Under the pieces are notes generated by a model, which saw only the letters and a program-made list of their open reading frames with translations, was not told the origin of the DNA and searched no databases. This document shows positions 21,373-32,905 of a stretch of DNA of 64,000 nucleotides, piece after piece. Positions within the stretch are counted from its first letter, which is position 1; every line of letters begins with the position of its first letter. The translations under genes were made by a program, and so were the position numbers. Where the stretch lies: positions 2,079,662 through 2,143,661 of the forward strand of contig NZ_FOAF01000001.1 in assembly GCF_900109575.1 (NCBI RefSeq), in the 5' to 3' direction. The DNA comes from Olivibacter domesticus. Lineage in GTDB: Bacteria > Bacteroidota > Bacteroidia > Sphingobacteriales > Sphingobacteriaceae.

Positions 21373-22485
21373 TTACAATAAATCCAATACTTCAAAATGA
21401 TTGAGTTCATTATCAAACAAGGTAAACTTTGCTGGGTAGTTTGCTGCTAATTTTCCTATTGTATTAGACAAACCAAGGGCTTTAGCCGGTCTTATTGTGG
21501 CCATTTCAACCGCTTCTTTTACAGTCAGGTTTAATTCGTTTACCGCATTTCGTACCGCATCGGGAAGCGATATGTTTGCACCGGCTAAATTTCCATCACT
21601 ATTTATATATTCATCGTTTATCAATTTTGCATCAAACTCTTCCCACGTAAAGGAGGTTTTCTTTTTCCTCAAAAAAAGTGCATCCGAAATAAGAAACAGT
21701 TTGTCTTTTTTAATTTGATGGGCAATCTTTGCAGCAGCGAAGTCAACATGTCTACCATCCAAAACAATTGGTGCATAAACATCCGGATGGTCAAAGGTGG
21801 CGCCCACCAATCCGGGAGCTCTATGTAAAAAAGGTGACATTGCATTGAATAGATGCGTCACCTGCTGAATTCCAAGGCTGAAAGCGCTACTTGCCTCTTC
21901 ATAAGTAGCATTTGAATGGCCGGCAGCCAAGGCAACCCCACTTTTCAATAAATATTTCAAGGTATATTCGTCAAACATTTCGGGTGCAATTGTCATTTGC
22001 AAAATCGTACCATTCGCATACTCAATCAGCTCTTGAATGAGCTCTTTATTTGGTTTCTGAATATATTTAGTGAGGTGTGCTCCCCTCTTTATCGGGTTTA
22101 AGAAAGGACCTTCCAAGTGCATTCCCAATACACCACTTTTTGGATGCTGTATACAATAATTTTTAATTGCATCAATTCCTCTAAAAATATTATCCTTAGA
22201 AGATGTTATCAGCGTAGGAAGCAGATACCCCACACCATCTAACGTGCTTGAAGCCTCCATGTCTGCTATACATTCTTCTGTCGGATTGGCTGTAAAATGA
22301 TAATTTGCGCCCCCATTTAACTGGATATCAAAAAAACTTGCGCTAATATTTTCGACCACTTCATCCGCACTTGATTGATATCCCGAGCTTATATTTTTTA
22401 TTTTGCCGTGTGCACATGTGATAATTTGATTTTCCAGTACATCATCTCCAGTGTATATCTTGTGGGCGAATACTTTAAATTCCAT
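21373..22485 (-). CDS. nagA: N-acetylglucosamine-6-phosphate deacetylase
   Basis: Amidohydrolase-superfamily enzyme that removes acetate from GlcNAc-6-P in amino-sugar catabolism and cell-wall recycling. Motifs: FFDIQLNGGANYHF in place of the HxH motif (as in E. coli NagA), the metal ligand Glu in GMHLEGPFLNPIKRGAH, AAGHSNATYEEA and THLFNAMSP (His ligands), and the catalytic Asp in LISDALF. The length (370 aa) is standard. No nagB or PTS gene adjoins it, so GlcNAc-6-P must be made by an unlinked kinase. The FucP-like permease at 10-11 kb is a possible GlcNAc importer. Divergent from the amidohydrolase-QEGLA cluster. Confidence 0.95.
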   Translation of the reverse strand: MEFKVFAHKIYTGDDVLENQIITCAHGKIKNISSGYQSSADEVVENISASFFDIQLNGGANYHFTANPTEECIADMEASSTLDGVGYLLPTLITSSKDNIFRGIDAIKNYCIQHPKSGVLGMHLEGPFLNPIKRGAHLTKYIQKPNKELIQELIEYANGTILQMTIAPEMFDEYTLKYLLKSGVALAAGHSNATYEEASSAFSLGIQQVTHLFNAMSPFLHRAPGLVGATFDHPDVYAPIVLDGRHVDFAAAKIAHQIKKDKLFLISDALFLRKKKTSFTWEEFDAKLINDEYINSDGNLAGANISLPDAVRNAVNELNLTVKEAVEMATIRPAKALGLSNTIGKLAANYPAKFTLFDNELNHFEVLDLL

Positions 22486-22680
22486 TGTAAATGTTTTTGA
22501 TTTCAGTAAAGATAAAAGCTTCTATTGAAATCACCTAAATCTAAAGAAAAGACATCTAAAACAGCTTTTGCATGGGGTATATAAAGCAATCTGCTTTAAG
22601 CAAACAAACATGCGGTCTTCATGTTTATATGGATGGTGAATAACGCAGGATCAAGACATATAAAAATGACTTAAAGAAAT

Positions 22681-23472
22681 ATGGAGGATCGACTATTAAT
22701 TAAGGCACGAAACAGTCCTATCATTGCTACAGCAATACATGACGGCCATTTTATTCCAAAAGAATTCCTTGATAATATGTCGCTTGAGGAACATGAGCGC
22801 AGCCACGAAGAAGATCCTTATACCGGTTTTATGGCAGATCTACCCGTTAACACAGTGATTGCTGAAAATTCCCGCTTTTTAGCAGATTTAAATCGCCCTA
22901 GAAATAAATGTATTTATAAAACACCTGATGATGCTTGGGGACTAACCGTCTGGAAACAACCGCTCTCAACACAAAAAGAGCAGCAGCTGCTTGATTATTA
23001 CGACACCTTTTATACAAAAATAAAGCAACTGCTGGAAAACATAATAAACCAACATGGCTGCCTCTTGGTACTCGACATACATACTTATAATTATAGGCGA
23101 CAAAACCCGCAGGAGAAAGCGTCTAAACAGCAAAATCCAGAAATCAATATTGGCACAAAAAACAACCTCCCCCATGCCCGTGCATTAATAGACACCTTTA
23201 TTGATTTTCTTTCTCAAAGCAAAATCTATGGACACAGACCCGATGTTAGAGAAAATATAAAATTCCAAGGCGGTGAATTTTCTAAATGGATAGCTAACTA
23301 TTACGGTCAATATGGTTGTGTACTCTCAATAGAATTCAAAAAAACATTTATGGATGAATGGACAGGGCGCGCAAACATAAAACACTTAATGGATATTCAG
23401 GCTACGTTAAAAGACAGTATTCCATTATTAAAAAAAGAACTTAAGAAGTTTAAAAGCTTAACAGCTCTATAG
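22681..23472 (+). CDS. N-formylglutamate amidohydrolase-like protein
   Basis: FGase-fold (PF05013-type) zinc amidohydrolase. Motifs: IIATAIHDGHFIP (first metal His), DLNRPRNK (substrate-side Arg), LLVLDIHTYNYRR (DxHxY metal motif), FQGGEFSKWIANYYG and LSIEFKKTFMDEWTG (Glu and basic residues). No histidine-utilisation (hut) gene is near, so the family name probably does not describe its true substrate. It is the first gene of a cluster: 10 nt before the QEGLA peptidase gene, then the ATP-grasp gene. The arrangement implies hydrolysis of an amide or N-blocked amino acid connected with those two enzymes (inference). Confidence 0.87.
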   Translation: MEDRLLIKARNSPIIATAIHDGHFIPKEFLDNMSLEEHERSHEEDPYTGFMADLPVNTVIAENSRFLADLNRPRNKCIYKTPDDAWGLTVWKQPLSTQKEQQLLDYYDTFYTKIKQLLENIINQHGCLLVLDIHTYNYRRQNPQEKASKQQNPEINIGTKNNLPHARALIDTFIDFLSQSKIYGHRPDVRENIKFQGGEFSKWIANYYGQYGCVLSIEFKKTFMDEWTGRANIKHLMDIQATLKDSIPLLKKELKKFKSLTAL

Positions 23473-23482
23473 CAGCATTACT

Positions 23483-25327
23483 ATGGTAGAAAAAAACGAA
23501 AAGCTACTGAATCAAATACTTGACAAATTAAAAAAAGGCGATCCAATGCGCGTGTCTTTACCGCACAAGGGCATTTTAAAAATGGATAAACCTGTGCCCT
23601 TTTTAATAGTTTATCGTATCCCACCCAATGGAAAAGATAATTTCACTTATAATTTGGGTCGTACAGAATCTTCTTACTTAATAGCTCCAGAAAGTGAAAA
23701 AGGTACTATAGAACCGTTTATAAAAGCAATAACTAACTACCTAGCAGATTATTTTGGCAGCTTTATGTTAGTAGAAGTATGGTTGTCACCGCAAATAGCC
23801 GATTATGATTTCACTATTCATCTTAATCAAAAAGGTGCGCTGAGCATGGCAACGAAGCTCACAGACGAATTAAGCAGCTTACGTATAGGAAACAAATATA
23901 TTTCGGCCAATCTTGATAAGCAGAAAACTGCCGTAGCCCCCCCTTATTACCCACCTTTAATTGATAAAAAGGAGGGTAATCAATCGGGCATTGTACAAGT
24001 TGGCATAGAAATAGCGCCAAATTTTAACGATGCTGTAACAGGAAAACCTTATCCCTTGTTTACAAGAGAGTTGCGAACCTCTTTTGGGAAAGCACTGCGG
24101 AAAAGCCTATTTGAATTTGTAAGAACAAATACCTCTTATAATGCTACCCATTTTGAAATGTTGGGCACCACCATACTCGATGATAAAGTATGGGAGATAG
24201 ATAACGAATTAGCAGAATATAGTAATTTATTTGATTTTCTCTTGCTGGTCACTCCTATCAATGTAGCAGATGCATGGAAGAACTTTTCAAAAAGTAATTA
24301 CCTTAAAATGCCGGCATTTCACTATAGGCCAATGCCGATAGAACCTGAATTAATTAAACGCAAAATATATAACTTACCCATAGAAGACATCTCCGATCCT
24401 ACAATAGCTTTTCTATTTCGTGATAAAAGAAAAGAAATTGATAGGATGCTTAATATGATGTTAGAAAGAGAAAAACCTGATTTTATGCACAGCAGTTTAC
24501 AGCTGTTTGGCAATATCGACGAGCATTTATTAGATGTAGCTAAAGCTATTTTAGTTGCTGCCGAACCGAATCCGGAAAAAGAGAATGAGGAGTTGCTAAA
24601 TGCGCAGGAGTTTGCTTCAATGGCCGAGATGGAGCTAAACTGGCTAAAGCAGCAAGATAACAATATTCTTACGGCTGTTAGAGTACGTGATGATGTGGAA
24701 GGCATCATGGTATCTAGAGGAACACTGAATATAAATAAAAATTATACGGTACCTAAACGCAGAGCCATTGCCTTAATTCAGCATGAAATAGGTACGCATG
24801 TAGTTACTTACTATAATGGCAAGGCGCAACCTTTAAAGCTATTTTATATTGGCGTACCGGGATATGAACAATTACAAGAAGGCCTCGCTGTTTTTTCAGA
24901 GTATCTTTGTGGCGGACTAACAAATGACCGCTTAAGAATCTTGGCTGCACGGGTTGTTGCTGTTAATAATATGATTTCTGGCAACTCTTTTGTTGATACG
25001 TTCTTTTTATTAACAGATAAATATCAATTCACACCCGAAACAGCCTTTCACGTCACCATGCGTGTTTATAGAGGCGGGGGGCTCACCAAGGATGCCGTTT
25101 ATCTAAAAGGACTTTTAAATCTCCTCGAATATATTAAACAAGGAAAAGAGTTAGCTCCTCTATTGATCGGAAAGATTCGACAAGATTATATTCCAGTTAT
25201 AAACGAGTTAACATTTCGCGGACTTTTAGCCAAAATACCCATTACACCGAGGTATCTAAGTGCACCTTATTTAAAACCTATGAACAATATAAAAAAAGGA
25301 GGAAATATTTTTAGTATGCTGAACTAG
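23483..25327 (+). CDS. QEGLA-motif metallopeptidase (DUF1704/MATCAP family)
   Basis: Zincin-type peptidase of the family annotated as 'flavohemoglobin expression-modulating QEGLA motif protein', homologous to the eukaryotic tubulin carboxypeptidase MATCAP (KIAA0895L). The zinc motif HEIGTH is at 434-439 (IQHEIGTHVVTYYNG), and the third ligand/glutamate lies in the eponymous QEGLAVFSEYL (465-475, Glu466). The N-terminal 300 residues form a separate alpha/beta part (IVYRIPPNG..., LVEVWLS) and the C-terminus has VTMRVYRGGGLTKDAVYLKGLL. The length (614 aa) is that of the long bacterial form. No signal peptide. It is the second gene of the amidohydrolase-peptidase-ATP-grasp cluster, so it may trim what the ligase adds. 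Confidence 0.88.
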   Translation: MVEKNEKLLNQILDKLKKGDPMRVSLPHKGILKMDKPVPFLIVYRIPPNGKDNFTYNLGRTESSYLIAPESEKGTIEPFIKAITNYLADYFGSFMLVEVWLSPQIADYDFTIHLNQKGALSMATKLTDELSSLRIGNKYISANLDKQKTAVAPPYYPPLIDKKEGNQSGIVQVGIEIAPNFNDAVTGKPYPLFTRELRTSFGKALRKSLFEFVRTNTSYNATHFEMLGTTILDDKVWEIDNELAEYSNLFDFLLLVTPINVADAWKNFSKSNYLKMPAFHYRPMPIEPELIKRKIYNLPIEDISDPTIAFLFRDKRKEIDRMLNMMLEREKPDFMHSSLQLFGNIDEHLLDVAKAILVAAEPNPEKENEELLNAQEFASMAEMELNWLKQQDNNILTAVRVRDDVEGIMVSRGTLNINKNYTVPKRRAIALIQHEIGTHVVTYYNGKAQPLKLFYIGVPGYEQLQEGLAVFSEYLCGGLTNDRLRILAARVVAVNNMISGNSFVDTFFLLTDKYQFTPETAFHVTMRVYRGGGLTKDAVYLKGLLNLLEYIKQGKELAPLLIGKIRQDYIPVINELTFRGLLAKIPITPRYLSAPYLKPMNNIKKGGNIFSMLN

Positions 25328-25385
25328 CTTCTCAAATCACTAGATTAAATAAATTAAATAATACACTAAAAACCATTTGGCCCCC

Positions 25386-26375
25386 ATGAACATTGTCTTT
25401 GTCGTAAATCAAGTAATGAAAGAAACTCCCGAGTATACTACCACGGGCTTAGCTTTACAGGCCCATAAAATGGGTCATAACGTTCACTATATGGGGATAG
25501 GAGATTTAGCTTATCTCGAGAGTGAGGCCATGGGTGGATTGGCCCGCAGCGTGCCTGACAAACAATTCCGAACGCCGGAGACCTTTATCGAGGCGGTAAA
25601 ATCTGTTGAAAAGATTAAACTTGAAGGCCGCGATATAGATGTATTGATCCTTCGTAATGATCCTTCGGCAGATATAGATAAGCGACCTTGGGCGCAAAAT
25701 GCGGGCATCGTTTTTGGGCAGCTGGCACAAAAACAGGGCATCGTTGTTTTGAATGATCCTACGAGCTTATCACAGGCCTCTAATAAAATGTATTTTCAGT
25801 ATTTTCCTAAACAAGTCCGCCCGAAAACAATCATTACGAGAAGTGTAGCTGATATTGAAGATTTTTATAAAGCCAATGGCAGCAAAATAATTTTGAAGCC
25901 GCTACAAGGTTCGGGGGGACGGAATGTGTTCTTAATTAATAAACAAGAAGTCAAGAATTTAAACCAAATTGTAGATGCCATTTGCCGTGATGGCTTTGTT
26001 GTAGCCCAAGAATACCTATCAGCTGCTAAAAACGGGGATATCCGTTTATTTTTATTAGACGGCGAGCCGATTGTTGTAAACGGACATTATGCAGCAATAC
26101 ACAGACAACAGAAAAAGGGCGAGATAAGAAGTAACATTCATCAGGGTGGAAGCGCAGGCAAAGCAAGGATAACTAAACGTATAAAGCAGATCATTGATTT
26201 GGTGGGGCCTAAGTTAAAAGAGGACGGAATGTTTCTAACTGGGCTTGATATTGTTGGAGATAAATTGATGGAAGTGAATGTATTTAGTCCAGGGGGACTG
26301 GTACATGCTTGTGGATTATACGGTGAAGACTTCTATACACCGGTGATTAAGGCCATCGAGGCGAAAGTTAAATAA
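25386..26375 (+). CDS. ATP-grasp ligase, glutathione-synthetase-like
   Basis: ATP-grasp amide/peptide ligase resembling GshB. Starting at MNIVFVVNQ (ATG 25386; a TTG at 25377 is less likely) it has the N-terminal domain with LILRNDPSADIDKRPWA and IVVLNDPTSLSQASNKMY (GshB-like substrate-binding strands), then the ATP-grasp domain: KIILKPLQGSGGRNVF (phosphate-binding loop), FVVAQEYLSAAKNGDIRLFLLDGEP, and the metal-binding EVNVFSPGG. True glutathione synthesis is doubtful because no gshA is linked and most Bacteroidota lack glutathione, so ligation of an amino acid to another acceptor is favoured. It is the third gene of the cluster, 58 nt after the QEGLA gene. Confidence 0.87.
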   Translation: MNIVFVVNQVMKETPEYTTTGLALQAHKMGHNVHYMGIGDLAYLESEAMGGLARSVPDKQFRTPETFIEAVKSVEKIKLEGRDIDVLILRNDPSADIDKRPWAQNAGIVFGQLAQKQGIVVLNDPTSLSQASNKMYFQYFPKQVRPKTIITRSVADIEDFYKANGSKIILKPLQGSGGRNVFLINKQEVKNLNQIVDAICRDGFVVAQEYLSAAKNGDIRLFLLDGEPIVVNGHYAAIHRQQKKGEIRSNIHQGGSAGKARITKRIKQIIDLVGPKLKEDGMFLTGLDIVGDKLMEVNVFSPGGLVHACGLYGEDFYTPVIKAIEAKVK

Positions 26376-26427
26376 TTTTGACAAAATTCAGCTACCTTCG
26401 AATAACAGAAAGAAGCAATACAATACA

Positions 26428-27471
26428 GTGATTCACATCTATAGGTTACGAATAAAAAAAATTATTGAGGAAACGCAGGACGCGAAATCGTTTATTTTAG
26501 AAAATTTAGATAAAAAAACGCTGCATTATCATGCAGGGCAGTTTTTAACGTTATTATTTGAACAGACAAACGGAACTGAAGTCAGAAGAAGTTATTCTAT
26601 TAGCTCTTCCCCGGTACTTGATAAAGAGCTTGCTATTACTGTAAAAAAAATAGCAAACGGAGAGTTCTCGAGAAGGCTAGCAGACAAAGCGAAAGTGGGC
26701 GATATATTAATGAGTATTGGCGCATCCGGTTTGTTCACTTTACCAACTACTATAAAATCTAACGATCGCTTTTGTTTTATGGCAGCGGGTAGTGGTATAA
26801 CACCTATTTTCTCCCTTATAAAGACATTATTACATAACAACCCGACCACCTCAATTCTACTAATATATAGCAATACCAGCCAAAGCTCAACTATATTTTT
26901 TAATCAACTTACGGAGCTAAGGGAATCATTTCAAAATCGTTTTGCCATTGAGTTTCTTTTTAGTCACTCAACGAAAATTTTCGAAAGTCGACTTACCCAT
27001 TCCGTAATCGATCTATTAATTGATAGATATGCCCTTTACGAACATAATAACACAATTTTTTATTTATGTGGACCATATGCATACATGCGTATGGTTTCTA
27101 TAAAATTACGAGCAGACGGCATTGATGCTGAAAGGATAAAGAAAGAGTTATTTATTATAGATACACCTTCATTTAAATTAGTCGAACCGCCCGACCAAGA
27201 GGCTCATGAAGTAACCATATTTCTAAACAAGCAACGATACTCCATCGAGGTAAAGTATCCTACATCCATCTTACAAAGTGCGAAAAAGCGGCAGATTCCT
27301 ATACCTTACAGCTGCGAAAATGGACAATGTGGTGCTTGTGCGGCGCTCTGTACCAAAGGTAAGGTTTGGATGAGGTATAATGAGGTACTCGGTAATAAGG
27401 CATTAGCTGAGGGCTATATTCTTACATGTACAGGTTACCCAATTGATGGACCTGTTGAATTAACTTTATAA
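26428..27471 (+). CDS. Ferredoxin-NADP reductase-like flavoprotein with C-terminal 2Fe-2S domain (PaaE type)
   Basis: Three-domain electron-transfer protein: FAD-binding barrel (RRSYSISSSP, the RxYS motif), NAD(P)-binding domain (FMAAGSGITPIFSLIKTLL and FYLCGPYAYMRM), and a plant-type ferredoxin domain with Cys-X4-Cys-X2-Cys (SCENGQCGACAALC) plus a distal Cys (ILTCTGYP). Such reductases feed oxygenases or desaturases. It starts with GTG (26428). No paa genes are near, so phenylacetate degradation is unlikely; the 52-nt gap after the ATP-grasp gene allows cotranscription with that cluster. The acyl-ACP desaturase at 15 kb is another possible electron acceptor, unproven. Confidence 0.9.
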   Translation: MIHIYRLRIKKIIEETQDAKSFILENLDKKTLHYHAGQFLTLLFEQTNGTEVRRSYSISSSPVLDKELAITVKKIANGEFSRRLADKAKVGDILMSIGASGLFTLPTTIKSNDRFCFMAAGSGITPIFSLIKTLLHNNPTTSILLIYSNTSQSSTIFFNQLTELRESFQNRFAIEFLFSHSTKIFESRLTHSVIDLLIDRYALYEHNNTIFYLCGPYAYMRMVSIKLRADGIDAERIKKELFIIDTPSFKLVEPPDQEAHEVTIFLNKQRYSIEVKYPTSILQSAKKRQIPIPYSCENGQCGACAALCTKGKVWMRYNEVLGNKALAEGYILTCTGYPIDGPVELTL

Positions 27472-27543
27472 ATAAATGATATAACAAATCACACACGAGT
27501 TCCAAACACCTCATCATAGTTCTTTGCTATGTCAGATTCACTA

Positions 27544-27879
27544 TCAGTGAACGGAAGTTTTGGAAAATAGATTGATAACAATTACCCCTGCGATAATAAG
27601 TAATATACCCAATATCGCTGGTAAATCAGGTACCTGTTTAAATAGCAAAATACCTGTAACACTTATCAGAATGATGCCCACACCTGACCAAAGCGCATAA
27701 GCAATCCCGATTGGCATTGATTTTAACGTCAAACTTAAGAAATAAAAAGCCCCAACATACCCGATAATAGTAATCGCTGTAAATAAAGGTTTTGTAAATT
27801 GTTCAGAAGTTTTCAAAGAAGTAGTAGCAATTGTCTCTAACAGAATAGCGACCATTAAAAACAGGTACGATTTGTTCAT
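27544..27879 (-). CDS. Small multidrug resistance (SMR/EmrE type) transporter
   Basis: Four-helix proton antiporter subunit of the SMR family, acting as an inner-membrane dimer to export quaternary ammonium compounds or related cations. The essential membrane Glu is present in helix 1 (VAILLETIATTSLK, Glu15 or so). Helices follow as TAITIIGYVGAFYFLSLTL, IAYALWSGVGIILISVTGILLF (the SMR GxG packing motif region) and AILGILLIIAGVIVINLF. The length (111 aa) is standard. Its leader contains a terminator hairpin and a mini-ORF ending in an ATGA overlap with this start codon, which suggests regulation by attenuation. Confidence 0.93.
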   Translation of the reverse strand: MNKSYLFLMVAILLETIATTSLKTSEQFTKPLFTAITIIGYVGAFYFLSLTLKSMPIGIAYALWSGVGIILISVTGILLFKQVPDLPAILGILLIIAGVIVINLFSKTSVH

Positions 27880-28164: not shown

Positions 28165-30225
28165 ATGATAAACATAAAACGACTTTTCCAGCTTAGTTTA
28201 TGTTTTCTGCTCCATACATTAGCTGTTGATAGCAGGGCGCAGAACATCAGCGATTCTCTGAGTAATGAGTTAAAAAACAAGCAGCTAAAGCCCGGCGAAA
28301 AAGTAATGATTATGGGTAAATTAGCCCATAGACTATATTTCCAGAACGAAGAAAAGCAAGCCGATTCCTTATTGCAACTAGCACTTCTCACTGCTAACAC
28401 ACTAAAAGACGGTCAATACAGTGCTTATATTTATGCCATTAAAGCCTTTCAAAGTCGGATCACCGAAAAGGATAAATCGATCACAAGAGAACTACTTGAT
28501 AGTGCAACTTTCTTTGCTAAGAGAACCTCCAATAATACCATCAAAGGCTACGTTTTTTATTGTAGTGGGTGGATTGATAGCAGAGATGGAAAACCGAATG
28601 AAGCGATCAATTTTTTTCTAAAAGGAATAAAAATATTAGACAAAGAACACACCTTACAAGATTTAAAATATAAAGCTAATATCTATTCTGAACTAGCTGC
28701 GATCTATTCGGAATGGGAAGACACTGAAAATTTTGGAAAATACGTGCGGATGGGGCTTTCTAATGCATTAGAAAGTCACGATATAGACAATAAGGCTTCT
28801 TCTCAACAAATGCTTGCCAGCTATTTTGAACAACGCTATCTTAAAGACAGCACTGATAGAGCACTACTAGATTCAGCGCTGTATTATAACAAAGAAGCTA
28901 TTGCAACCATTCGAAACAATACAGAACGTATAAGACTTCTTTCTCAATTACCATTTACTGCTATGAATGTTGCCAACTTGTACGCACAACATTTCCCGCC
29001 AAGCTATCGCGATAGTATTCATATGTATCTCGATATAGCTTTACAAAAAGGGATAGAAACAAAGCAATACACAGTAGTGGCCAACAGTTATGGAATGATG
29101 AGTGATTTGGCCCTTGCAGAAAACAAATTAGATGAAGCAGAAAATTTACTCAATAAAGCCGCTGGCGTTATCACGCAAGATAACATGCCAGATCAGCATA
29201 CCTTGTCGCAAGTATTTCTAAATTTATCTAAAATTGCTGAACGAAAAAAAAACTATAGATCGGCCCTACAATATTACAAGCAACATAGTGATGTTCACCA
29301 ATCCATTTTTGATGCAGAAAAAATGCGTATTGGTAAAAGTTTGGCGGCTAAGTATGAAGCCGAAAAAAAAGAGCAACAACTGGCCACGATGCAGCATAAA
29401 ATCGGCTTATCGAAGAAGCTAAATACTGTTTATTTTGTGTTGGCCATTACCTTTCTTTTTGCGCTGCTACTACTGTATTACGCCTACCTCCAAAGAAATA
29501 AAACGTTAAAACAACAGGGGCTTGTTCACCAACTGGAAATTGAAAAAATAAACCAAGAACATCGAATATCCTTGCTTTCTGCGATGTTAGAAGGACAAGA
29601 AAGCGAGCGGTCAAGACTAGCACGTGATTTACATGACGGACTAGGAGGGTTAATTTCTGGTATAAAATTAGATTTAGCTGAACGCACAAATTCATTAACA
29701 TTGCAAGAATCAAAATCGATCTTCATACCTGTCTTACAACACATTGATGATGCTATTCAAGAGCTACGTAGAATTGCACACAGTATGATGCCAGAACTAT
29801 TGCTTAAAGCAGGTTTATCAGAGGCCTGTAAGGAGTATTGTAGAAATTTAAAGAAAGCGCATTTTGAGGTTGTTTGTCAGGTATTTAATTTTAAGGGGAT
29901 GGATAAAGAACGGGAGGTGGTACTTTACAGAATCATGCAAGAATTACTAACAAATGTAGTTAAGCACGCACATGCCAAAAAAGTATTAGTACAGCTTCAG
30001 CAAAGCGACGATTTAATAAACCTTACCGTTGAAGATGATGGAAGGGGTTTTGATCTAAACGACGAAAAGAATAAACAGGGTGCAGGATGGAGAAATATAC
30101 AATCGAGAGTTCAATATTTAAAAGGGGTCATCGAAGTATATTCTGACTCCAAAAAAGGAACAACTGTGACTGTAGAATGTAAATCCAGCGAGAAAAAAAG
30201 AGAAAAATTTGCGCTCACTCCCTGA
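28165..30225 (+). CDS. TPR-containing sensor histidine kinase (HisKA_3/NarL-partner type), first copy
   Basis: Sensor kinase of a two-component system. Order: signal peptide (KRLFQLSLCFLLHTLAVDSRAQ), about 360 residues of tetratricopeptide-like helices in the periplasm, one membrane helix (VYFVLAITFLFALLLLYYAYL, about 417-438), a coiled-coil linker, the HisKA_3 dimerisation domain with phospho-acceptor His490 (RLARDLHDGLGG), and a HATPase domain with N-box ELLTNVVKHAH and G1 DDGRGFD. The G2 box reads GAGWRNI, with Trp where Leu is usual. Followed after 71 nt by a paralogous kinase and then a NarL-type regulator. Confidence 0.93.
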   Translation: MINIKRLFQLSLCFLLHTLAVDSRAQNISDSLSNELKNKQLKPGEKVMIMGKLAHRLYFQNEEKQADSLLQLALLTANTLKDGQYSAYIYAIKAFQSRITEKDKSITRELLDSATFFAKRTSNNTIKGYVFYCSGWIDSRDGKPNEAINFFLKGIKILDKEHTLQDLKYKANIYSELAAIYSEWEDTENFGKYVRMGLSNALESHDIDNKASSQQMLASYFEQRYLKDSTDRALLDSALYYNKEAIATIRNNTERIRLLSQLPFTAMNVANLYAQHFPPSYRDSIHMYLDIALQKGIETKQYTVVANSYGMMSDLALAENKLDEAENLLNKAAGVITQDNMPDQHTLSQVFLNLSKIAERKKNYRSALQYYKQHSDVHQSIFDAEKMRIGKSLAAKYEAEKKEQQLATMQHKIGLSKKLNTVYFVLAITFLFALLLLYYAYLQRNKTLKQQGLVHQLEIEKINQEHRISLLSAMLEGQESERSRLARDLHDGLGGLISGIKLDLAERTNSLTLQESKSIFIPVLQHIDDAIQELRRIAHSMMPELLLKAGLSEACKEYCRNLKKAHFEVVCQVFNFKGMDKEREVVLYRIMQELLTNVVKHAHAKKVLVQLQQSDDLINLTVEDDGRGFDLNDEKNKQGAGWRNIQSRVQYLKGVIEVYSDSKKGTTVTVECKSSEKKREKFALTP

Positions 30226-30296
30226 AAATAGGGGTTTTACTAATTGGCAGCGCATTCTTTTTTGAAAACTGGTAACTTGCAACAAATATCGGGTTC

Positions 30297-32285
30297 ATGC
30301 TAAAGATAATTGTTTTATGGTTGTTAACTATCATCCCTGCATTTTCCTCAGGCCTACAAAAACAGTCATCCTCCCTGGTAGACAGTTTACGGAATGAACT
30401 TAAGTTTGCGACATCAGACACCACAAAATCACATTTACTTGTAAGCATAGGCAATCAACTCAGTTCTTCCGATAGCTTAATAGGCTCGAAGACCTTACAA
30501 GAAGCTTTAAAATATGCCATCAAGTCAGGAGACCCATATTATATAGCAAATGTATATACCGCTATTGGTAGATTTAATCAGTTTTATAACATTATAGATA
30601 GGGCAAAAAGTTTTTACAAAAAGGCAGAAATACTGTTGACTAAAGATGCTGCTAATACGCGCAATCAGAAGCTATTATTACTCATAAAACAAAATTATTT
30701 AAGTTTAAGAGCAAAAGAAAACCCAAATGAAGCATTGAAGGAAGCACTATCGCTAATTCCATTAGCAGAGAAGGTGGGCGATCAGGTAACCTTAGGAAAT
30801 ATTTACAATAATATAGGTGTCTGGTTTATGAACATTTCGGCCTACGAAAAAGCAATCGACTATTTCAAAAAAAGTGTTTCAGTAAAACTAATTGAACCGC
30901 GGCAATATGCACGCTTCGCCTATTCGTTTATTAATCTAGCCGCTTGCAATTATCGCCGGGATCGGATAGATTTAATGCCCCCCTACCTTGATGAAGCAAA
31001 AAAAAATATGTTGAAGGCCAATGATCGCCAAGAGGTTTGGGCATGGTATTATAACTACTGTGGTCTTTATGCCTATGAAAAGAAGCAATACAAACGAGCA
31101 GAAAAGGATCTTTTGAATGGCCTGTCCATTGCGAAAAAGGAGAATGACGCACTCGCACAAAGCAATTTGTTAGGCACATTGGTTAAAATTAACCAAGCAA
31201 CAGGTAATTACCCTCTTGCCCTAAGGTACGCAGAAGCGAACTATCATTTGAGGTTAGATGCTAAGAATAACTATTTAGGTATGCTTGAAAGCATTGCTGA
31301 AATTAATGGAAAGCTTGGCCGCTATAGGGAAGCTTATCAAGCCATGCGCACATACACCGTATTATCTGACAGTATCCAAACATCTGAAAAGACTTCTAAC
31401 CTGAATGAAATAGCACAAAAATTTGAAGCTGCTGATAAAGAGCGGCAAATACTTCAATTACAGCATGACAATGAAGTTAAGTCATTTGCGCTTCAAAAAA
31501 ACGGCCTTTATACAGGTCTATTAACAGCGGTGTCTCTTCTATTGTTAACCTTAGTTATCTTGTATTTTCAGTTTAATCGTCATCATAAAAAGCAATTAAG
31601 GCAGCATAAACAACTCCATCAATTAGAGATGGAGAAAATTGGTCAGAAAAACAAAATCTCCCTCCTTTCTGCAATGCTTGATGGACAGGAATCAGAAAGA
31701 ACAAGAATAGCTCGTGATTTACATGATGGACTTGGGGGATTTTTATCGGCCTTGAAAATTGAACTTTCAGGCACCTTTAAAACAGATGTAACAGATCAGC
31801 TCCTTGCCACAGATACGTTAAACAGAATAGATTATGCCGTTGACGAGTTAAGGTTTATATCGCAGAATCTGATGCCTGAAACGCTCATCAAATACGGATT
31901 AGGAGAGGCAATTAAATCGTATTGCGCTCGAATGCGTAACAAGGGTGTACAGCTCTTATGCCAGCTATTTCACTATAGCAAGGATCTAAGCCAAGATAAA
32001 GAACTGATTTTATATAGGATTATGCAAGAATTGGTAACAAATGCCATTAAGCATGCACAGGCGACAACTATCTTTGTACAGCTTTTGAAAAGTGATAACA
32101 AAGTGACCTTAACAATAGAAGATAATGGAAAAGGCTTTGACAAAAGCCTTTTACTAAAAAACCGAGCCGGTAGCGGATTAACAAATATAATGTCAAGAAT
32201 TGAGTATATCGACGGTGAGCTTGACATACATTCTGAGCCTGGCAATGGAACAACTTTCACCATAGAATGCATTATAACATCATGA
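30297..32285 (+). CDS. TPR-containing sensor histidine kinase, second copy
   Basis: Paralogue of the preceding kinase, 662 aa. It has a signal peptide (MLKIIVLWLLTIIPAFSSG), a periplasmic TPR array (for example NNIGVWFMNISAYEKAIDYFKKSV), one membrane helix (GLYTGLLTAVSLLLLTLVILYFQF), the linker LSAMLDGQESERTR, phospho-acceptor His476 (ARDLHDGLGGFLS), N-box ELVTNAIKHAQ, G1 DNGKGFD and G2 SGLTNIMSRI. The catalytic half is much closer to the first copy than the sensor half, as expected after duplication and sensor divergence. Its stop overlaps the response-regulator start (ATGA at 32282-32285). Confidence 0.93.
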   Translation: MLKIIVLWLLTIIPAFSSGLQKQSSSLVDSLRNELKFATSDTTKSHLLVSIGNQLSSSDSLIGSKTLQEALKYAIKSGDPYYIANVYTAIGRFNQFYNIIDRAKSFYKKAEILLTKDAANTRNQKLLLLIKQNYLSLRAKENPNEALKEALSLIPLAEKVGDQVTLGNIYNNIGVWFMNISAYEKAIDYFKKSVSVKLIEPRQYARFAYSFINLAACNYRRDRIDLMPPYLDEAKKNMLKANDRQEVWAWYYNYCGLYAYEKKQYKRAEKDLLNGLSIAKKENDALAQSNLLGTLVKINQATGNYPLALRYAEANYHLRLDAKNNYLGMLESIAEINGKLGRYREAYQAMRTYTVLSDSIQTSEKTSNLNEIAQKFEAADKERQILQLQHDNEVKSFALQKNGLYTGLLTAVSLLLLTLVILYFQFNRHHKKQLRQHKQLHQLEMEKIGQKNKISLLSAMLDGQESERTRIARDLHDGLGGFLSALKIELSGTFKTDVTDQLLATDTLNRIDYAVDELRFISQNLMPETLIKYGLGEAIKSYCARMRNKGVQLLCQLFHYSKDLSQDKELILYRIMQELVTNAIKHAQATTIFVQLLKSDNKVTLTIEDNGKGFDKSLLLKNRAGSGLTNIMSRIEYIDGELDIHSEPGNGTTFTIECIITS

Positions 32286-32905
32286 TAAAAGTTATTATAA
32301 TCGATGATCATCCCATCGTGATAGATGGACTTCAGAATTTATTTTTCAATCATGCCGATATTGAATTAGTCGGTGCCTATAAAACGGGCCAGGAGGCACT
32401 AGATGCCTTAAAGAAGCTGGAAACCGAGGTTATTCTGCTGGATATAAATTTACCTGACATGAATGGCATTAATTTATGTAACGATTTGAAAAAACTCTAT
32501 CCTCAATTAAAGATAATAGCCCTGAGTTTACATAACGAACACGCGGTTATTCGAAGTATGCTGCAAAATGGGGCACTCGGTTATGTCATCAAAAATGCTC
32601 CTGGCAATGAGATTTTGGAAGCCATTCATGAAGTAGCTCGTGGGCACAAGTATCTTTGTTCTGCCACCCGTGCTACCATGACAAATGCCGAGGCAGACCA
32701 GCATATAACGGTTCCACTTATTACGAGAAGAGAAAAGGAAGTGTTACAGCTAATAGGTAAGGGATTAACCACGCAACAAGTTGCCGATAAACTATTTATT
32801 AGTCCTCATACAGTAGAAAGCCACAGAAAGAAGTTGATGGAAAAGTTTGAAGTGGGCAATATCATCTCGGTCATTAAACTCGCTACCGACTATAGACTGC
32901 TGTAG
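32282..32905 (+). CDS. Response regulator, NarL/FixJ (LuxR-HTH) family
   Basis: DNA-binding response regulator. From the ATG at 32282 the receiver domain has the acidic pocket IIIDDHP (Asp8, Asp9), phospho-acceptor Asp54 (VILLDINLPDMNG), and Lys in GYVIKNAPG; the C-terminal LuxR-type HTH reads LTTQQVADKLFISPHTVESHRKKLMEKF. The start is chosen because it forms the 4-nt ATGA overlap with the kinase stop; the earlier in-frame ATG at 32267 is inside the kinase gene and adds five residues. It is presumably phosphorylated by one or both of the kinases. The regulon is not deducible. Ends at a strong terminator. Confidence 0.95.
   Translation: MIKVIIIDDHPIVIDGLQNLFFNHADIELVGAYKTGQEALDALKKLETEVILLDINLPDMNGINLCNDLKKLYPQLKIIALSLHNEHAVIRSMLQNGALGYVIKNAPGNEILEAIHEVARGHKYLCSATRATMTNAEADQHITVPLITRREKEVLQLIGKGLTTQQVADKLFISPHTVESHRKKLMEKFEVGNIISVIKLATDYRLL

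Follow-up and report, generated by a model that had tools for sequence, protein, structure and literature searches.

What joins a protein of the N-formylglutamate amidohydrolase (FGase) family, a QEGLA peptidase and an ATP-grasp ligase, three proteins whose names imply unrelated jobs, in one closely spaced row of genes? The question is raised by a stretch of 64,000 nucleotides (nt) of the Olivibacter domesticus genome (contig NZ_FOAF01000001.1, positions 2,079,662 to 2,143,661; hereafter the window), for which a preliminary description had proposed that the trio adds an amino acid to a protein or small molecule and trims it off again. Based on comparison across genomes and plasmids, including profile searches, structure models and a ligase tree, we show that the three genes, whose kinds are constant and whose order is largely so, form a conserved unit that is inherited together. 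As to its function, we give a probability of roughly 45%, slightly below even odds, to a cassette that makes and breaks one kind of amide bond, probably of glutamate, in the manner of RimK/RimB or TTLL/CCP and with unrelated hydrolases; we infer its target, the ligated residue and the direction of its action.

A sample of 296 Bacteroidota genomes yielded the QEGLA family (PF08014) in 16 cases and a set of 201 genomes from the window's family in 51, which together represent 64 different genomes. An ATP-grasp gene resides in the same cluster in 63 of these 64 and an FGase-family gene as well in 61, contrary to the rarity of this neighbourhood elsewhere that, according to the preliminary description, would have counted against the system. 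The predominant order, as in the window, is FGase, QEGLA and a ligase of the type designated class A (54/64), while five clusters have the order class B ligase, FGase and short QEGLA, one of them with FGase and QEGLA fused (L051), and two (L052, L053) have the order class B ligase, FGase, QEGLA and class A ligase, i.e. two different ligases per cluster. In L052 and L055 the class B ligase is separated from FGase by additional genes, and the ligase of L084 is interrupted by the contig end. With mechanically assigned starts, and leaving out L060 and the broken trio frames of L092 and L097, 62 of 64 neighbouring pairs of FGase and QEGLA, and 53 of 61 of QEGLA and ligase, overlap or are separated by less than 60 nt. 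Three duplicates (L062, L082 and L089, taken for the records or species of L002, L001 and L087, respectively) were dropped from the profile-based counts.

The association is also visible from the side of the partners. Strong ligase matches (E <1e-100) occur in 15 of the 296 Bacteroidota genomes, all within the 16 with QEGLA and spread over six families, and the next-best matches (5e-62 in L103 and 6e-61 in L102) are both GshB-type genes. Strong FGase matches (E <1e-70) occur in 14 genomes, 13 of them with QEGLA, the exception being G128. The hypergeometric probability, with kinship ignored throughout, is 3e-24 for the ligase (15/15 within 16 of 296) and 5e-19 for FGase; counted by genus, the value for the ligase (14/14 within 15 of 140) is 2e-18. 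The co-occurrence of ligase and QEGLA exceeds chance.

In the window, the three same-strand open reading frames are separated by 10 and 58 nt and carry the HEIGTH and QEGLA motifs, in agreement with the preliminary description (Table 1). The 58 nt gap is counted from an ATG at 25386; the open reading frame as called mechanically spans 25377-26375 with a TTG start, and relatives favour the ATG (invariant M4). The absence of hut and gshA genes nearby was likewise borne out: the six genes scanned with Pfam and NCBIfam from 21373 to 27879 include no hut gene, and the whole genome is without the gamma-glutamylcysteine ligase families PF04262 and PF04107. All three trio proteins fall under every NCBIfam equivalog cut-off listed, and only the ligase exceeds a subfamily cut-off, that of PRK12458. 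A promoter scan gave 21 vs 18.2 (standard deviation 4.8) in shuffles and a terminator scan 8 vs 4.5 (standard deviation 2.5).

Table 1 Features of the trio and its surroundings (positions in the window)
Feature	Position	Strand	Basis or remark
N-acetylglucosamine-6-phosphate deacetylase, divergent from trio	21373-22485	-	
FGase-family gene, zinc-hydrolase fold, 263 residues, not HutG	22681..23472	+	Pfam PF05013
Long QEGLA (MATCAP-family) peptidase gene, 614 residues	23483..25327	+	Pfam PF08014
Peptidase N-terminal domain, residues 1-236, apparently degenerate FGase-like	23483..24190	+	hhalign vs FGase alignment
HEIGTH, HExxxH metal site, residues 434-439	24782..24799	+	H434, E435, G437, H439 invariant (20 and 34 rows)
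QEGLA motif, residues 465-469	24875..24889	+	Q465, E466, G467, A469 invariant (34 rows); aligns with human MATCAP EEGLA
ATP-grasp ligase gene, GshB/RimK type, class A, 329 residues	25386..26375	+	Start = ATG 25386
Ligase substrate loop R251-S252-N253 (TTG numbering)	26127..26135	+	RimK-like RSN, not glutathione synthetase RGN
Flavin/2Fe-2S reductase, outside cassette	26428..27471	+	Pfam/NCBIfam; neighbourhood comparison
Small multidrug resistance (SMR) family transporter	27544-27879	-	Pfam/NCBIfam

The peptidase matches PF08014 (E 9e-88, 295 bits vs a cut-off of 27) from residue 266 of 614 onwards, and its closest named relatives found are from Olivibacter, at 80% identity. With 325.6 bits it stays under the cut-off of the QEGLA equivalog TIGR02421 (338.65), which the fused L051 passes (381.3) and the standalone L047 fails (269.2). 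A single-sequence search of the PDB gave no relative; the peptidase profile matched human MATCAP 7z5g (E 1.6e-9), and MATCAP was also the top PDB match of the structure model in Foldseek (E 5.8e-9, template-modelling (TM) score by target 0.62-0.70 over MATCAP chains), so that the kinship with MATCAP proposed earlier holds. The model has a predicted local distance difference test score (pLDDT) of 86.9 and a predicted TM-score of 0.64, and the matches that follow MATCAP are carboxypeptidases such as 5e3x and 3hq2; above E 0.001 come the poly-gamma-glutamate hydrolase 3a9l and the FGase 2q7s (both E 2e-3), nucleoside phosphorylases and other folds. E466 of the QEGLA motif is presumed to be the third metal ligand, and an extended HExxxH is also present in TMCPs according to the accessible part of PMC10499314.

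The FGase-family product matches PF05013 (E 7e-25, 88.9 bits vs a cut-off of 28.9) and reaches 36.5 bits against the HutG equivalog TIGR02017, far under the cut-off of 278.75, and identity as a HutG N-formylglutamate deformylase was rejected on this score. Its structure model (pLDDT 95) has 2q7s (E 1e-13) and 2odf (E 1e-8) as nearest PDB folds, and the fold neighbours at E <=0.001 comprise N-formylglutamate amidohydrolases, the poly-gamma-glutamate hydrolase 5onj (E 1e-4) and M14-type metallo-carboxypeptidases, weaker neighbours being enzymes with other substrates. In PDB searches by sequence, the single protein found no relative and the FGase profile reached 2q7s at E 1.3 only. Residues H20, E43-E44-D45, H134 and E218 are invariant in 26 aligned rows and are putative zinc ligands or catalytic residues. 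At L101 (7252-8058), a trio-type FGase gene was observed for which QEGLA and a trio-type ligase were not found in the 16 kb read.

The two hydrolases appear to be related through the N-terminus of the peptidase. Neither the FGase hidden Markov model nor Pfam gave an FGase match for residues 1-236, where Pfam reports one sub-threshold unrelated domain. In an hhalign comparison, 40 such N-terminal domains matched 42 FGase proteins with a probability of 94% and a pairwise E of 2e-7, vs 0.0-0.8% probability for four control pairs. The kinship rests mainly on this comparison, because the fold listing of the peptidase model hides which domain matched 2q7s. W100 (34/40 rows) occupies the position aligned to FGase H134, and R45 (35/40 rows), placed by eye, is near that of H20. 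In the long QEGLA form, to which the window peptidase belongs, the first 236 residues thus resemble an FGase domain that has degenerated and lost its zinc histidines; since tryptophan stands at the position of FGase H134 and arginine near that of H20, the domain is probably catalytically dead. In other loci an FGase domain is fused to QEGLA outright, namely in four records from two phyla, L051 (Bacteroidota), L093 and L128 (Photobacterium) and L127 (Vibrio), with both domains called by Pfam in L051, L093 and L127 and by our own profile models in L128. Physical pairing of the two hydrolases is suggested by both arrangements, the built-in degenerate domain of one form and the true FGase fusion of the other; the fusion and the apparently degenerate domain are new findings of this study.

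TTL has an ATP-grasp fold, and the preliminary description had likened the third gene to this tyrosine ligase. The likeness does not extend beyond the fold: by sequence, the ligase is of GshB/RimK type and not TTL, with Pfam matches to PF02955 (GSH-S_ATP, E 8e-49), RimK PF08443 (E 4e-17) and PF02951, and the TTL family is absent from its Pfam matches at E <=0.001. The ligase passes PRK12458, a model named glutathione synthetase, by a narrow score (409.3 bits, cut-off 408), fails both glutathione synthase equivalogs (209.5 vs 272 and 192.9 vs 299.05 bits) as well as the RimK family and equivalog models (83.5 vs 143.4 and 53.5 vs 331 bits), and matches E. coli GshB 1gsa at E 4.5e-40. In a tree of 75 rows, the class B ligases (8) and GshB (2) separate as clades and the window ligase falls among the 63 class A rows, for which one or two changes are needed, one in 48% of the bootstrap trees, with deep forks partly open. 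For the tree and the residue counts, the short pieces L084 and L092 were left out and the broken-frame row of L097 was kept.

The substrate loop separates the trio ligases further, as S252 within RSN is present in 71 of 71 trio-type ligases, vs G within RGN in both Bacteroidota GshB proteins and in E. coli GshB 1gsa; RimK 7qys likewise has S at this position. Additionally, R223 and N301 of the ligase align with RimK R189 and N262, and N301 is an asparagine in 62 of the 63 class A rows, the exception being the broken-frame copy L097. In the accessible part of PMC10092738, RimK R189 and N262 are described as contacting polyglutamate.

The cassette also occurs beyond the Bacteroidota. A tblastn search matched 127 plasmid records, and among the 13 of these that were examined the intact trio is present in the window's order in six (L087, L088, L089, L090, L091, L096; L087 being pSymB of Sinorhizobium meliloti 1021 and L089 a second S. 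meliloti record), rhizobial plasmids among them. In two further rhizobial records (L092, L097) the trio is split into several frames, through either decay or sequencing error, and in another two (L093, L128) the fused FGase-QEGLA is accompanied by a class B ligase. A third, standalone type of QEGLA with 424-445 residues (L047, L094, L095) has neither ligase nor FGase in view; by eye, genes resembling resistance-nodulation-division (RND) efflux genes lie beside that of L047. Further, a search of 50,697 phage records gave one weak QEGLA-like match, in Pseudomonas phage Y1 (OQ572403.1, 63470-64642, 25.9% identity, E 8e-12).

In the reading that we prefer, the ATP-grasp enzyme would use ATP to couple an amino acid, with glutamate as the likeliest candidate, to the carboxyl group of an acceptor, perhaps the tail of a host protein or a small peptide. 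The QEGLA metallo-carboxypeptidase would remove residues stepwise from the free C-terminal end, and the active FGase-fold enzyme would cut an amide out of reach of the carboxypeptidase, for instance an N-acyl, gamma-linked or first-added glutamyl bond. The degenerate domain of QEGLA would likely be a docking half for the active FGase, with the hydrolases acting as one complex. Glutamate fits better than tyrosine as the ligated residue, because TMCPs shorten polyglutamate, RimK ligates glutamate and the fold neighbours of FGase include N-formylglutamate amidohydrolase, a poly-gamma-glutamate hydrolase and M14-type carboxypeptidases. The RimK-like S252 loop, R223 and N301, the fold matches to 3a9l and 5onj and an Na+:dicarboxylate symporter (SDF family) gene located ahead of the class B ligase in six clusters (identity Pfam-checked on L048 alone) point the same way; these are pointers, not proof. 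Of the ligate-and-trim proposal, the conserved unit of ligase, peptidase and amidohydrolase with a MATCAP relative thus stands, while the parts concerning tyrosine and TTL, and a fourth gene, do not.

Several observations weigh against glutamate editing by the whole trio. The pointers to glutamate are resemblances between families, none of them strong by itself: R223 and N301 do not single out glutamate ligation because GshB has both, the symporter-ligase adjacency could be shared synteny in the one family in which it occurs, and the fold lists extend to enzymes of different specificity, among them carboxypeptidase A, DapE and purine nucleoside phosphorylases. The class B ligase is named glutathione synthase by NCBIfam (283.9 bits vs a cut-off of 272). 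A complete trio is not required in every case, since FGase is missing from two clusters that retain the ligase (L059, L061), QEGLA stands alone in L047 (1/64) and in the plasmid loci L094 and L095, and no ligase gene is visible near the fused FGase-QEGLA of L127; one FGase gene, in L101, occurs without QEGLA. Finally, a search for same-strand small open reading frames of 20-120 residues within 700 nt on either side of 74 QEGLA loci yielded no acceptor gene.

Among the alternatives, a small-molecule pathway in which the ligase product is a short peptide or conjugate, for example an osmolyte or stress solute, that the hydrolases recycle without any protein being modified, is possible although on balance unlikely. 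N-acetylglutaminylglutamine amide synthesis, with its ligase and peptidase, offers a parallel. The flanks without an acceptor or carrier reading frame would suit such a pathway, as would carriage on large plasmids, which makes the cassette appear self-sufficient, and the two different ligases of L052 and L053, which would fit a two-bond product; the accessible text of PMC10308900 additionally reports a 27.5-fold change of a Photobacterium damselae QEGLA gene in a low-salinity transcriptome. However, the known substrates of the peptidase family are protein tails, as far as the available part of PMC10499314 describes them, and apart from a YihY-type gene no other gene recurs beside the trio across distant clusters with conserved placement (51 loci). 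The same flanks argue against a carrier-protein or ribosomal-peptide system in which the ligase would load a small partner protein, even though an ATP-grasp ligase with zinc peptidases is the pattern of LysW/LysX and graspetide systems. The ten largest groups of small reading frames never exceed one genus and by eye look like antisense frames of neighbouring genes, and on these grounds the flanks were judged to encode neither a carrier nor a precursor peptide; most clusters also have scant intergenic room. For graspetides the pattern of ligase and peptidase is described in the accessible part of PMC8939145, and we nevertheless consider a system of this kind highly improbable here.

Two further explanations take the family names more literally. 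Amino-acid salvage, in which the hydrolases free glutamate from N-formyl or otherwise blocked peptides and the ligase is incidental or stores the product, would account for the FGase family name and for the dicarboxylate symporter in six clusters; it appears highly improbable in view of the window FGase scoring far under the HutG cut-off and of the ligase being the most faithful partner of QEGLA, retained even where FGase is missing. Alternatively, the ATP-grasp protein could be a glutathione synthetase, with the hydrolases turning over glutathione or its conjugates, as would agree with PF02955 and PF02951, with the name of PRK12458 and with the class B ligase exceeding a glutathione synthase cut-off. 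The preliminary description had regarded such a role as decisive against its proposal. Synthesis by the usual route is unlikely in this organism because both gamma-glutamylcysteine ligase families searched are missing from its genome, and a glutathione operon was rejected for the lack of these first-enzyme families. Across the 16 Bacteroidota QEGLA genomes, PF04262 is in none, PF04107, a family that includes other ligases too, in six, and neither in ten. Moreover, the GshB-type genes of two Bacteroidota genomes (L102, L103) have a GCS2-family gene close by and fall into a clade of their own, L102 exceeding the glutathione synthase equivalog cut-off, and the trio ligases have the RSN loop rather than RGN throughout. 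We regard the glutathione explanation as extremely improbable.

The reductase that follows the trio had been suggested as a possible fourth member, and was rejected as such: a relative follows the trio in three of five genomes of the genus (window, L001 and L063, not L002 or L081) and in none of the other loci searched. Recurrent neighbours in the 51 loci compared are YihY-type, SDF symporter, rhodanese and RND efflux genes, mostly in family-level synteny, the YihY-type membrane gene being present in eight clusters of the window's family and on one plasmid. Among these loci, the deacetylase gene is divergent from the trio in the window, L001, L002 and L063. Downstream, at 28165-32905, the window has two similar sensor-kinase-like genes in tandem followed by a gene of response-regulator size; the first encodes tetratricopeptide repeat and histidine-kinase domains, and kinase relatives were grouped from L001 and L063 only. 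Elsewhere in the genome (L100, G000:C10, about 883001), two ATP-grasp-like proteins with open frames of 330 and 357 residues lie close together and by eye have the look of a peptide-maturase pair.

The current gene names (formylglutamate amidohydrolase, flavohemoglobin-modulating QEGLA protein and glutathione synthetase) imply unrelated jobs, while the genomes imply a joint function. If protein tails are edited, the cassette would add to RimK/RimB a second bacterial system of the ligate-and-trim kind and would place the MATCAP family in a bacterial setting of reversible modification; if a small conjugate is made, the trio would represent an unnamed metabolite pathway in Bacteroidota and Pseudomonadota. 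A bolder version, which we consider unlikely, is that the mobile cassette is a bacterial forerunner of the tubulin code, adding glutamate to protein C-termini from which it is removed by a MATCAP-family peptidase complexed through paired active and dead FGase domains, and that MATCAP arose from such bacterial reversible glutamylation. A review of ATP-grasp amidoligase neighbourhoods by Iyer and colleagues from 2009 reportedly may mention the link, which would then lower the novelty. In the open literature, which lacks most subscription journals, no paper describing the trio was found among the matches listed, and queries with locus tags and gshB2 gave nothing on it; the available part of PMC4431377 mentions neither a peptidase nor formylglutamate, and a term search of the available part of PMC13269789 found no mention of bacteria.

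Compared with known systems, the ligase shares its domain architecture with GshB, to which it matches as given above, and differs in its separate clade, its RSN loop and a genome without the gamma-glutamylcysteine ligase families. The FGase protein has a fold common to N-formylglutamate amidohydrolases and poly-gamma-glutamate hydrolases (2q7s, 2odf, 5onj), and no poly-gamma-glutamate synthesis gene was found among the neighbours scanned with Pfam and NCBIfam. With the MATCAP/TMCP tubulin carboxypeptidases the peptidase shares HExxxH, the EGLA glutamate, KDxxYLxG and the overall fold, and it differs in being bacterial, in the long form with an apparently degenerate FGase domain and in its genetic tie to a ligase and FGase. 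The accessible text of PMC10499314 describes TMCPs, the MATCAP family of eukaryotes, as detyrosinases that also shorten glutamate chains, sparing the branch-point glutamate, and a Tetrahymena relative as a deglutamylase. The tubulin cycle of TTL/TTLL with CCP/TMCP likewise sets an ATP-grasp ligase against carboxypeptidases, one of them of the MATCAP family (PMC10499314, same part); the trio is unlike it in the lack of a TTL-family match and in FGase matches to the carboxypeptidases 4a37 and 4b6z at fold level only.

An organisational parallel may be drawn with RimK/RimB (RimABK, acting on ribosomal protein S6), in which an ATP-grasp ligase is likewise co-encoded with a protease, as ligase and peptidase are in 63 of 64 QEGLA genomes here. 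The trio is not the organism's RimK system, a candidate identity rejected because a separate rimK (L099, G000:C10, about 1863022; 409.8 vs 331 bits for the S6-glutamate ligase model) adjoins a PF05618 RimB-like gene, the latter below the RimB cut-off; by eye, adjacent genes resemble rpsL and rpsG. As described in the accessible parts of PMC11957791 and PMC10092738, RimK adds glutamate and RimB removes it, and ligase-protease hybrids are known. The trio ligase scores under the RimK cut-offs, and where RimB is a retropepsin-like aspartic protease, the trio instead has two metallohydrolase-type proteins.

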